Shown: positions 1 through 5,581 of the stretch, piece by piece
How the letters are laid out: every line of letters starts with the position of its first letter
How positions within the stretch are numbered: the stretch's first letter is position 1
NCBI GenBank assembly: GCA_027022065.1
Contig: JALVZS010000141.1
Span: forward strand, 2,729 to 8,309
DNA from: a bacterium
GTDB taxonomy: Bacteria; Thermosulfidibacterota; Thermosulfidibacteria; Thermosulfidibacterales; Thermosulfidibacteraceae
Direction of reading: 5' to 3'
DNA: 5,581 bases
The notes under the pieces: model-generated
Database searches by the model: none
What the model was told of the DNA's origin: nothing
What the model saw: the letters and a program-made list of their open reading frames with translations, nothing else
Position numbers and translations under genes: made by a program

Positions 1-320
1 CCTCTAAGTATTGCGGAAAGCACATCGCACACCCTGCCTTGGGCACCGACTATGGGCTCTATCCCCTCTTGTTCAAAGAAAGAAGCCGCCCTTTGCCCCA
101 TACCTCCTGCAACTATTACATAGGCACCCTCCCCCTTCACAAAGGACGGAACGATTCCAGGACCATGGACATTAACAAAGGGATTCTCCTTTACCTCAAC
201 AGAGATAATCTCTCCATCCTCATCCAGCTCCACAAAGGTAAAAAACGGAGCCCTTCTAAAGTGAGAAGCAACCTGGGCATTTAAGCCTCCCGGAGCCTCT
301 GTGGCAAAGGCTATCTTCAT
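1..320 (-). other. Possible internal translation product: stand-alone Nitro_FeMo-Co domain protein
   Basis: An ATG at 320-318 begins exactly where family homology begins (MKIAFATE) and is preceded by a good ribosome binding site. Stand-alone proteins of this family are about 100-130 residues and start in the same way, so this reading would give a normal-length small cluster-binding protein. It shares the frame of the upstream MerR domain, so it is either an alternative product of the fusion gene or, if a sequencing or assembly error removed a stop, the true separate gene of a merR-nifX-like pair. Confidence 0.45.
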
Positions 321-620
321 CTTCAACCTCCCATGAGTCATGTAGTAGGCACATGAGGCCCTTTTGCCCTCCGGACAGTTTATAACCCTCCAGCACGGAG
401 CCACGGAAAAGAGCTTCTTAACCCCCGCTATGTTTACCCCTTCCTCAAGCAAAATCCTTATGCACTTCAGCTTCTGCACATCGCTTTCAGAGTAAAACCT
501 CTTTCCCCCTATGCGCACAGGAGAAACAAGCCCCTCCTTCTCGTATATCCTGAGCATCCTGGGATGAACCCCAACCATCCTGCTGGCTATCCCTATGGGA
601 TACACAGGCTCCTTCACCAT
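1..620 (-). CDS. MerR (HspR-like) regulator fused in frame to a Nitro_FeMo-Co (NifX/NifB-type) domain; 3' end beyond the window
   Basis: I translated this frame by hand from the ATG at 620-618; it stays open to the left edge (206 complete codons). Residues about 7-71 form a MerR-type winged helix-turn-helix; the core GVHPRMLRIYEKEGL and the following GGKRFYSESDVQKL strongly resemble HspR-type members, so it should bind an inverted-repeat operator. Residues 76-90 hold a C-x5-C-x7-C motif (C76 followed by W77, C82 by P83, C90 by AY), a possible metal or redox site. From residue 101 (MKIAFATEAPGG) the protein matches the Nitro_FeMo-Co family (PF02579), with SHF, ENPF and GIEPIVGAQG signatures; members bind Fe-Mo or Fe-S clusters or act in cluster assembly. 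That domain is almost complete at the window edge. No stop separates the halves, so I call one fusion gene, but a strong internal start at 320 could also yield the second domain alone. Its ligand and target genes are unknown. The merR start has only a weak AGGT as ribosome site. Confidence 0.8.
   Translation of the reverse strand, partial: MVKEPVYPIGIASRMVGVHPRMLRIYEKEGLVSPVRIGGKRFYSESDVQKLKCIRILLEEGVNIAGVKKLFSVAPCWRVINCPEGKRASCAYYMTHGRLKMKIAFATEAPGGLNAQVASHFRRAPFFTFVELDEDGEIISVEVKENPFVNVHGPGIVPSFVKGEGAYVIVAGGMGQRAASFFEQEGIEPIVGAQGRVCDVLSAILR
321..332 (-). promoter_or_regulatory. Strong internal ribosome binding site inside the MerR fusion gene
   Basis: Read on the minus strand, GGGAGG (332-327) lies six bases before the ATG at 320. 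This is as good as the site in front of cydA and much better than the one in front of the MerR start at 620. It encodes part of the inter-domain linker (HGRLK), so its presence may be chance codon choice, but spacing and position at the domain border argue for real internal initiation. Confidence 0.5.
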
Positions 621-626
621 ACCAAT

Positions 627-655
627 TACCTATGACATGACAATGAAATTGTCAA
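627..655 (-). promoter_or_regulatory. Possible promoter of the MerR fusion gene
   Basis: On the minus strand TTGACA (655-650) matches the sigma-70 -35 consensus perfectly. At a 17-base spacer the -10 candidate is TAGGTA (632-627), a poor match; at a 19-base spacer it is GGTAAT (630-625), better and of the length typical of MerR-controlled promoters. Either -10 lies so close to the ATG at 620 that a transcript would be leaderless or start within the first codon. The -35 is convincing and the -10 is not. Confidence 0.3.
638..654. promoter_or_regulatory. Perfect 7-3-7 inverted repeat, candidate operator of the MerR-type gene
   Basis: TGACAAT-GAA-ATTGTCA is a perfect palindrome with 7-base arms, 18 bases before the ATG of the MerR fusion gene. 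It overlaps most of a consensus TTGACA box on the minus strand (655-650). A palindrome covering the -35 region suits repression, as with HspR. The sequence differs from the classical HspR element (CTTGAGT-N7-ACTCAAG), though both contain a TTGA core. Autoregulation by the adjacent gene product is inference. Confidence 0.45.
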
Positions 656-687
656 GTAAAAGGAGGAAGGGGCCTAGTAGACCTCCT
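656..687 (-). terminator. Weak hairpin at the end of cydB, possible partial terminator
   Basis: On the minus strand AGGAGG (687-682), within the last cydB codons, can pair with CCTCCT (666-661), followed by TTTAC, giving a run of four T. The stem is only six pairs with a 15-base loop, so termination would be inefficient. Some read-through from cydAB into the MerR fusion gene is therefore likely. Confidence 0.25.
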
Positions 688-3190: not shown

Positions 3191-4405
3191 ATGCACGTCA
3201 TTAATAAGGCGGACACCACCTGGCTCTTAATCTCAAGTGCTTTGGTGCTCCTCATGACTCCGGGACTTGCCCTCTTCTACGGAGGAATGGTGAGAAGCAA
3301 AAACGCCGTAAACACACTGATGATGAGCTTCGTCTGCATGGGCATAGTTACAATTGAGTGGATAATTCTGGGGTATTCCCTATCCTTTGGAAGCGGGCTT
3401 GGAGGATTTTTGGGAGGACTAAACCACATATTCCTCAACGGAGTAACCTCAAATCCCTCAAAGGATTATGCGGTTACCGTCCCTGAGTATGCCTTTGTAA
3501 CATTCCAGATGATGTTCGCCATTATAACGCCCGCTCTCATCTCAGGAGCCTTGGTGGAAAGGATGAAGTTTTCGGCCTATATTCTATTTATCCTTTTGTG
3601 GTCCATCTTTGTTTACAACCCCATCTGCCACTGGGTATGGGCAAAGGATGGATGGCTCTATAAGTTAGGAGCATTGGACTTTGCAGGAGGCACAGTGGTT
3701 CACATAAACGCAGGAATATCGGCCCTTGTGGCAGCCTTTGTTTTAGGAAGGAGAAAGGGATTTATGAGGGAACAGATCCTTCCCCACAACGTTGTGCTCA
3801 CCGCCTTGGGGACGGGGCTTCTCTGGTTTGGATGGTTTGGTTTCAACGCGGGCTCTGCCCTTGAAGCGGGAAAGCTCTCCAGTTTGGCCTTCATCACGAC
3901 CCATGTGGCGGCGGCAAGCGCTGCCTTTGCCTGGATGATAGCGGAATACATAAGGTTTGGAAGGGCAAGCACCATAGGCTTCTGCTCAGGGGCCGTGGCG
4001 GGTTTGGTTGCCATAACCCCTGCAAGCGGGTTTGTGGGAATAAAGGGGGCCTTGGCCATAGGGCTGATTGCAGGAGCACTCTGCTCCTACACCGTGGAGC
4101 TTAAAATAAAGTTCGGATACGATGACTCTCTGGATGTCTTTGGTGTTCACGGCATAGGTGGACTTTGGGGAGCCATTGCAACGGGCATATTCGCAAGAGT
4201 TGGAGCAAAGGGACTGCTTCTGGGCAACTTTAGCCAGCTTCTAAAGCAGATTCTGGCCTGTGCGGCAACCATCGTGTACTCTGCAGTGCTCACTTTTGTT
4301 ATCCTAAAGCTCATAGAGGCCGTCATAGGCCTTAGGGTTACAAGGGAAGACGAGGAAATGGGACTGGACCTCACACAGCACGGAGAGGAGGCCTACAAGG
4401 TGTAG
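3191..4405 (+). CDS. amtB: Ammonium channel of the Amt/MEP/Rh family
   Basis: AmtB conducts ammonium across the cytoplasmic membrane as a trimer, supplying nitrogen when ammonium is scarce. The 404-residue product is full length for forms without a cleaved signal peptide and should have 11 membrane helices. Diagnostic elements are present: PGLALFYGGMVR at 24-35, phenylalanine gate residues F109 and F218 (in WFGFNAGSA), W150 of the outer recruitment site, D163 in DFAGGTVVH, and the twin pore histidines H171 and H320 (DVFGVHGIGG). The C-terminal tail GLRVTREDEEMGLDL followed by HGEEAY keeps the conserved segment that contacts PII proteins (GlnK) in family members, so PII gating is likely. AAAGGAGGT six bases upstream supports the start. 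Unlike many amtB genes, no glnK or glnB adjoins it; the next gene is convergent and cydA is divergent. I see no sigma-54 promoter upstream. Function is confident; the symbol amt would serve equally. Confidence 0.96.
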   Translation: MHVINKADTTWLLISSALVLLMTPGLALFYGGMVRSKNAVNTLMMSFVCMGIVTIEWIILGYSLSFGSGLGGFLGGLNHIFLNGVTSNPSKDYAVTVPEYAFVTFQMMFAIITPALISGALVERMKFSAYILFILLWSIFVYNPICHWVWAKDGWLYKLGALDFAGGTVVHINAGISALVAAFVLGRRKGFMREQILPHNVVLTALGTGLLWFGWFGFNAGSALEAGKLSSLAFITTHVAAASAAFAWMIAEYIRFGRASTIGFCSGAVAGLVAITPASGFVGIKGALAIGLIAGALCSYTVELKIKFGYDDSLDVFGVHGIGGLWGAIATGIFARVGAKGLLLGNFSQLLKQILACAATIVYSAVLTFVILKLIEAVIGLRVTREDEEMGLDLTQHGEEAYKV

Positions 4406-4422: not shown

Positions 4423-5581
4423 CTAACTTAAAAACTTCTCAACCAGCTCCTTCTCGGGCATGGGCCTTGCCAGATAAAACCCCTGAACATAGTCGCAGTT
4501 GGCCTCTTCAACCGCCCTCAACTGCTCCTCCGTCTCCACCCCTTCCGCCACGGTCTCAATACCAAGAGCATGGGCTATCTCAACAATGGCCTTAACAATC
4601 TTAAACTCCCTTCCCCTTTCCTCCACCCCTTTTATGAAGGAACGATCTATCTTCACCACATCCACAGGAAGGCTCTTCAGATAAAGGAGAGAACTATATC
4701 CCGTCCCAAAGTCGTCTATAGCTATCTTAACAGGCCTCAGCTTCACAAGCTCTATGATATCCCTGGTCTTTTCAAGATCCTTTGCCATGCTCCTTTCTGT
4801 TATCTCAAGAACCACATTGAATCCGTTCCTGTTGGGAACGATGGAGTGCACCATCTTGGTAAAGCTGGGATCAAGAAAGCTTCTCGCAGATATGTTCACG
4901 GAAACAGCCACATTCCACTGCCTTGACTTATCTATGGCATTTTCAATAGCCTTTTTCTCAAATGCCCTGTTGTATCTACTGTTTTCAAGGTAATCAACAA
5001 ACTCCCCGGGAAGATGCAAAGAACCATCCTCCGCCTTTATCCTTACTAAGGTCTCCACCCCTACAAGCCTCATACTCCTAAGCTCAAAGTAGGGCTGGTA
5101 GTAGAAGACCAGCAGATTCTTCTCAACGGCCCTTGCCACCATTTGCTCGGCTCTTAGGAACTGGGAAAGCTTGTCCTGAAGCGCCTCATTGAAGAACTCA
5201 ATAACCCCCTCTCCCTTCTGCTTTGCGGAGAACAAAGCGGCAAGTGCCTTCTGATACAGCTCAAAGAACTCCAAGGCATCTGCTGGGTACACCGAAACCC
5301 CCATCCTGTAGCTGGCGTGAAGCGTCAGCCCCTTTATCTTGAAAGGTTCCTTAAAGACCTCTGCGATCCTTCCCACCACCTTAAGTAGGTCATCCTTTCT
5401 CCTTACACTGGAGATTAAAAGGCCGAACTTATCACCCTCAACCCTGGCAAGAATATCCCTCTTTGATATAGCCTTCCTTATCCTCTCGGCTATGGCCCTC
5501 AAAAGCAGATTTCCCATCTCAAAGCCATAGGTGTAGTTGACCTTGCTCAGACCGTAAACATCAAGCACAACCAAAGCAGCC
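4423..5581 (-). CDS. GGDEF-EAL protein, degenerate GGDEF and likely active c-di-GMP phosphodiesterase; 5' end beyond the window
   Basis: The frame is open through the right edge, so the start and any N-terminal sensor domain are not visible; the first complete codons read AALVVLDVYG, already inside the GGDEF domain. Numbering is by the 385 visible codons. The GGDEF domain (about 1-130) is degenerate: the signature reads EGDKF (48-52), the usual ND substrate pair reads NY, and the RxxD inhibitory site is missing, so cyclase activity is unlikely although GTP binding cannot be excluded. The EAL domain (about 145-383) keeps the catalytic set: E176 in ETLVR, N229 in VNIS, E259 in LEITE, DDFGTGYSS at 289-297, K310 in VVKID, E346 in AEGVE and Q366 in YVQGF. 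It should therefore cleave c-di-GMP to pGpG, perhaps with allosteric control by the GGDEF half. EAL is changed to ETL, a mild variant. It converges on amtB with a 17-base gap and is not in an operon seen here. The ATG/TTG candidates inside the window are not the true start. Confidence 0.9.
   Translation of the reverse strand, partial: AALVVLDVYGLSKVNYTYGFEMGNLLLRAIAERIRKAISKRDILARVEGDKFGLLISSVRRKDDLLKVVGRIAEVFKEPFKIKGLTLHASYRMGVSVYPADALEFFELYQKALAALFSAKQKGEGVIEFFNEALQDKLSQFLRAEQMVARAVEKNLLVFYYQPYFELRSMRLVGVETLVRIKAEDGSLHLPGEFVDYLENSRYNRAFEKKAIENAIDKSRQWNVAVSVNISARSFLDPSFTKMVHSIVPNRNGFNVVLEITERSMAKDLEKTRDIIELVKLRPVKIAIDDFGTGYSSLLYLKSLPVDVVKIDRSFIKGVEERGREFKIVKAIVEIAHALGIETVAEGVETEEQLRAVEEANCDYVQGFYLARPMPEKELVEKFLS

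Follow-up and report, generated by a model that had tools for sequence, protein, structure and literature searches.

A MerR-type regulator fused to an ORP domain at the head of a predicted metal-cluster operon

Results

The window analyzed here is a 5,581-nucleotide stretch of bacterial DNA (contig JALVZS010000141.1, positions 2,729 to 8,309). At its left edge, directly after cydAB and in the same direction, as the first-pass annotation had stated, lies a gene that joins a MerR-type DNA-binding domain to an ORP (orange protein; Nitro_FeMo-Co, NifX-like) domain. The features of this gene and its upstream region are as follows:

3..620, minus strand: MerR_CW-ORP fusion gene, 206 codons seen from the ATG; the gene runs out of the window at its 3' end, which falls in a scaffold gap of 10 Ns
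408..602, minus strand: winged helix of the MerR_1 family for DNA binding, HspR/GlnR-like (residues 7-71)
462..464, minus strand: Cys53, invariant in 6/6 fused proteins and found in 14/16 stand-alone MerR_CW proteins; absent from HspR
351..395, minus strand: CW-x4-C-x7-C motif (Cys76, Cys82, Cys90), equal to the first half of the stand-alone MerR_CW Cys domain
3..320, minus strand: ORP/Nitro_FeMo-Co domain from Met101, GGMG/HGPG subtype; Pfam match at residues 114-204 (9-281)
249..263, minus strand: HFRRA, residues 120-124, where other ORP domains have HFG[RH]C
636..656, no strand assigned: putative operator; the inverted repeat, CTTGACAATTTCATTGTCATG when read on the minus strand, immediately precedes the fusion gene and overlaps its TTGACA box

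Farther to the right, judged by eye from the translations, are an ORF resembling an Amt-type ammonium transporter (3191-4405, plus strand) and, truncated at the edge of the window, a GGDEF/EAL-like protein (4423-5580, minus strand). Both are unrelated to the fusion.

The frame runs from 620 to the left edge without a stop, and a Pfam domain search bore out the earlier hand-translated reading of a winged helix, a C-x5-C-x7-C motif and a Nitro_FeMo-Co domain in one chain. MerR_1 (PF13411) was matched with an E-value of 1.9e-17 (63.5 bits, gathering cut-off 21.6) and Nitro_FeMo-Co (PF02579) with an E-value of 2.6e-16 (60.1 bits, gathering cut-off 26.3). The cysteines of the motif occur in the pairs C76-W77 and C82-P83 and in C90-A91-Y92. 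Since the window starts right after the scaffold gap (L002 2719-2728), the C-terminal end of the protein is missing; about 25-40 residues fall in the gap, and the five complete orthologues run on for some 25-35 residues more. An LC-x-PHE...C tail ends four of these five orthologues. A single 367-aa protein running across the Ns was considered and rejected, as the next NifX gene is separate in relatives (-4 to +87 nt). In the fold model, one half is GlnR/MerR-like, and the ORP half has fold matches in TM1816, PH0822 and apo-ORP 2wfb. GlnR/TnrA-type members are also among the best matches, and the model, in which the linker (residues 80-100) has low confidence, contains no long helix beyond residue 73.

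Conservation was assessed in nine genomes of the window's order, its own included; the same nine make up the whole candidate phylum. Five of the eight other genomes carry the full fusion without a stop, with 61-69% identity over the whole length (L033-L037). A sixth (G001) carries it up to the point where its contig ends. The fusion is missing from two genomes (G002 and G008, 2/9 of the phylum), both MAGs; contamination reaches 6% in one of them, and the other has a completeness of 73%. The first-pass annotation had named two separate genes or a missing base as the result that would overturn a fusion. Because the orthologues carry the same stop-free two-domain chain, the frame is a genuine fusion and not an assembly error. 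Elsewhere, other phyla do have MerR_CW and ORP as separate genes, as expected if two neighbors had been read through by chance. However, the same joint is common to six genomes from three families, and the identity across it rules out a frameshift, a missing stop or another artefact, so that chance read-through of adjacent genes is hardly credible. The MerR-ORP fusion is thus a genuine and conserved protein of a little-known group of anaerobic-type bacteria.

Outside the phylum, a survey of 386 genomes, nearly all of them sampled across the domain, gave no MerR-ORP fusion. Searches of 82 genomes of the phylum of G052 and 98 genomes of the phylum of G029, with strict E-value limits that weak cases could escape, also gave none. 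Viral contigs contained no relatives of the fusion protein, and a viral or mobile origin was rejected. The collection of papers that was searched contained nothing relevant on MerR with orange protein, or on DUF134 with the dinitrogenase domain.

The fusion gene is followed by NifX2 (a second Nitro_FeMo-Co protein), two MinD/ParA-type ATPases with inserted ferredoxins, Mrp/NBP35 and DUF1847. This order was taken from the window's own contig, which ends within the Mrp gene, and from L033-L037 as far as their contigs reach; the Pfam assignments of the neighbors come from L033. NifX/ORP genes, MinD-ferredoxin ATPases and Mrp, which together define an ORP-type operon, are all present, and by gene content the fusion gene heads an ORP-type metal-cluster operon. 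An oxygen or redox link had been suggested from the position after cydAB. This position says little, because none of the five complete orthologues has cydA or cydB in its flanks; cydAB is a neighbor only in the window's genome among those compared. The same phylum also encodes proteins of 403-414 aa that resemble cation diffusion facilitators and end in a Nitro_FeMo-Co-like domain (L040, L106), and their genes adjoin a metallo-beta-lactamase-like gene.

Unfused counterparts of the regulator were found in other phyla. G181 carries the closest MerR relative (53% identity) as a gene of its own, 138 aa in length and followed by MinDFd_A, MinDFd_B and a separate ORP gene. The same MerR_CW stands at the head of NifX2/MinDFd operons in G401 and G402, from the phylum of G181, and in G267 a separate MerR_CW gene is divergent from NifX2-MinDFd_A-MinDFd_B-MrpORP. 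These stand-alone Cys-rich proteins share with the fusion the winged helix, Cys53, the CW-C-C motif and the adjoining ORP-type operons. They have two CW-C half motifs, the second being CW..C..C-x2-C, whereas the fusion retains only the first half (Cys53, 76, 82 and 90) and has the ORP domain where the second half was. Judged by sequence, the fusion arose from two genes of one operon, and ORP took the place of the latter half of the Cys-rich domain in the regulator.

Other stand-alone members with the double CW-C motif lie beside genes for a Pyr_redox_2 flavoprotein and DsrE (and DsrC) (L086, L089, L095). Because of these adjoining genes, a sulfur-linked signal is suggested for the stand-alone Cys-rich MerR group. 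Regulators of the PadR or DtxR type head further ORP-type operons or genes (L096 4444-4893, L097 2676-3086, L133 4514-4894); by these cases, the regulator family next to ORP genes often changes.

Other helix-turn-helix (HTH) families are also fused to ORP domains. A DUF134 helix is joined to an ORP domain in G029 and G238, and the G029 gene is just upstream of NifX2-MinDFd_A-MinDFd_B. These DUF134-Nitro_FeMo-Co proteins (PF02001 + PF02579) resemble the fusion in having the HTH N-terminal to the ORP/NifX domain and, in G029, in lying near NifX2 and MinD-ferredoxin genes. They differ in that their HTH is sigma-region-4-like and not MerR, the HFG-x-C motif is kept and the CW cysteines are absent. 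An ArsR-type helix is fused to an ORP domain in G434. L138 1366-2262 (minus strand) encodes a 298-aa protein with an ArsR-type winged helix and a GGMG-type Nitro_FeMo-Co domain, making ArsR a third HTH family with an ORP domain. Most of the long PF02579 frames from outside the phylum proved to be NifX2 carrying a Gly-rich or ferredoxin tail; one more DUF134 fusion was among them. Since MerR, DUF134 and ArsR are different HTH families, HTH and ORP domains have been joined independently at least three times.

A CTTGACAATTNNATTGTCAAG-type dyad is present upstream of the fusion gene in 6/6 genomes that have upstream sequence. Across these six, CTTGACAATT is invariant and is followed by ATT(G/T)T.A, and the dyad has 7-9 of 10 pairs. 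When the nine genomes were scanned with TTGACAATNNNATTGTNA, the site upstream of the fusion was recovered in all six (five exact, G003 with one mismatch); the other matches were scattered one-mismatch sites and one exact site in coding sequence. The exact dyad copy in a genome without the fusion (G002:C14:3350-3367, L114) is within a chemoreceptor-like coding sequence and was taken as chance. A perfect dyad, CTTGACAATTACAATTGTCAAG, also lies between the divergent unfused MerR_CW and NifX2 genes of G267. Shuffling the dyad in single genomes gave values of 0.003-0.25, which is weak for some genomes, and so the case for the dyad rests on its conservation. The HspR operator HAIR is CTTGAGT-N7-ACTCAAG (PMC6102357). 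The fusion dyad, CTTGACA-N7-TGTCAAG-like, shares the HAIR geometry and the outer CTTGA/TCAAG, but the inner bases differ.

The promoter is less clear. In the window's phylum the -10 box is ambiguous, with candidate spacers of 15, 17 and 19, so that the promoter does not tell repression from MerR-type activation; HspR-like repression is mildly favored. Unfused relatives have a perfect TTGACA-N16-TATAAT promoter. In the phylum of G181, this promoter recurs, its spacer hardly varying. L130 has three copies, ACTTGACAAAAATTATTTCCA(T/C)CATATAAT at 361, 2855 and 7314; one is at the MerR gene and the others precede the NifX2 part and an MBL-fold gene, and they possibly mark a small regulon.

The ORP half was then examined for cluster ligands. 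The CxHFGHC motif of MrpORP has been proposed as a [3Fe-4S] ligand site (PMC6345978). The fused proteins do not have this motif; 7/7 carry HFRRA (HFRMA in one) instead. Among 18 other aligned ORP domains, the DUF134 and ArsR fusions included, the G of HFG-x-C is retained in 18/18 and the C in 17/18. The first-pass annotation had proposed a regulator with its own Fe-S or metallocluster domain. A domain of the cluster-binding family is indeed fused, but the loss of HFG-x-C puts cluster binding by this domain in doubt, and it may not bind a cluster. The four invariant N-terminal cysteines (53, 76, 82 and 90) look like better sensor candidates than the ORP half, and because of the motif loss these cysteines, with the C-terminal C/H tail, are the likelier ligands. 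Two other roles for the ORP half may be considered. The compared genomes of the phylum yielded no GGMG-type ORP domain other than the fused one, and therefore the fused protein may itself serve as an ORP subunit. The ORP half may also dimerize the protein, since the model has no long dimerization helix after the winged helix and the Di-Nase domain of MrpORP is a dimer.

Discussion

Because the fusion stands at the operon head with its own conserved DNA dyad, the operon probably has in it an integral sensor that also controls transcription. In our judgment, the better-than-even reading is an operon-specific autoregulator that answers the cluster or redox state of the operon. The MerR/HspR-like half would bind as a dimer to the 636-656 dyad, where this overlaps the TTGACA box in the gene's own promoter, thereby controlling the fusion gene, NifX2, the two MinD-ferredoxin ATPases, Mrp/NBP35 and DUF1847. 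The ORP half, alone or with Cys53/76/82/90, would sense cluster loading, redox or partner occupancy of the ORP machinery, and the sensed state of the metal-sulfur machinery made by the operon would give feedback. A one-protein sensor, as proposed before, thus remains the most natural reading of a conserved fusion with a promoter dyad at the head of an ORP operon, while its supposed tie to oxygen or redox through cydAB is not supported.

The ORP half could instead be a mere ORP subunit of the assembly complex, joined for co-expression or recruitment, with sensing (of sulfide, persulfide, zinc or redox) left to the cysteines of the regulator, on which the stand-alone MerR_CW proteins must rely. 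To judge by position, those proteins regulate although they have no ORP domain, and some of them adjoin the Pyr_redox_2/DsrE/DsrC sulfur genes. The fusion has also retained Cys53/76/82/90 while losing the HFGRC motif of the ORP half, and no other GGMG ORP gene was found in the phylum. Yet the fusion gave up the second half of its Cys site, and the joining of ORP to the unrelated HTH families DUF134 and ArsR suggests that this domain is in itself of use for signal input. We regard this explanation as a minority possibility, though a serious one.

It is more doubtful still that the ORP half is mainly a dimerization module that has lost its cluster and replaces the missing MerR coiled-coil helix, leaving the protein bound constitutively to the dyad. 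The change from HFG-x-C to HFRRA, the model without a long dimerization helix past residue 73 and the dimeric Di-Nase domain of MrpORP would all fit. However, ligand binding seems to be kept, to judge by the conserved cysteines and by the C-x-PHE tail that most orthologues have, and the positions of stand-alone MerR_CW genes indicate that the regulator can work with no ORP domain attached. A bolder form of the autoregulator reading, which we hold to be possible but less likely than not, is that the fused protein is both the cell's only ORP subunit and the DNA-bound regulator. Cluster loading or MinD-ferredoxin docking would then move it directly on or off the promoter, and ORP would have been recruited at least three times, by MerR, DUF134 and ArsR, as a general metallocluster-sensing input domain.

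The ORP operons of anaerobes encode proteins with unusual clusters, and a regulator that carries an ORP domain offers a direct handle on the input signal of the system. Together, the predicted operator and the independent DUF134 and ArsR fusions point to Nitro_FeMo-Co domains as sensor domains.

Among known regulators, the fusion has features in common with HspR, the HAIR-binding MerR-family heat-shock repressor. HspR gave its best NCBIfam match, and the operator geometry, CTTGA-N11-TCAAG, is common to both. The earlier description as HspR-like holds for the DNA-binding half only. The fusion scores 67.2 bits against the HspR equivalog NF047375 (cut-off 105), has no chaperone genes nearby and carries Cys53/76/82/90, which HspR lacks; moreover, an HspR-type paralogue is encoded elsewhere in the same genome, flanked by dnaJ-like and clpB-like genes. 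HspR identity was therefore rejected. With the metal and redox sensors SoxR, CueR and MerR, the fusion shares a MerR DNA-binding half and conserved cysteines. The four-Cys motif of SoxR is CX2CXCX5C; the fusion, with C-x5-C-x7-C, does not have it, scores 19.9 bits against the SoxR model TIGR01950 (cut-off 116.9), lacks a long dimerization helix in the model and has an operator without a clear 19-20 bp spacer. None of the equivalog models reached its cut-off.

A close parallel to the locus as a whole is in Desulfovibrio vulgaris, where MrpORP (DVU2109) has an Fe-S-binding Di-Nase domain fused to Mrp (PMC6345978) and the orp operons are controlled by sigma54, the enhancer-binding protein DVU2106 and IHF (PMC3897727). 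Both systems have MinD-ferredoxin-like ATPases, Mrp, Di-Nase/ORP proteins and a Di-Nase domain within a fusion. They differ in the fusion partner, Mrp in D. vulgaris and a MerR-type regulator here, and in that no MerR-type regulator controls the D. vulgaris operons. The fusion is a candidate regulator for ORP-type operons other than sigma54/DVU2106. Among the HTH-Nitro_FeMo-Co proteins already known, MerR-ORP is a new variant.
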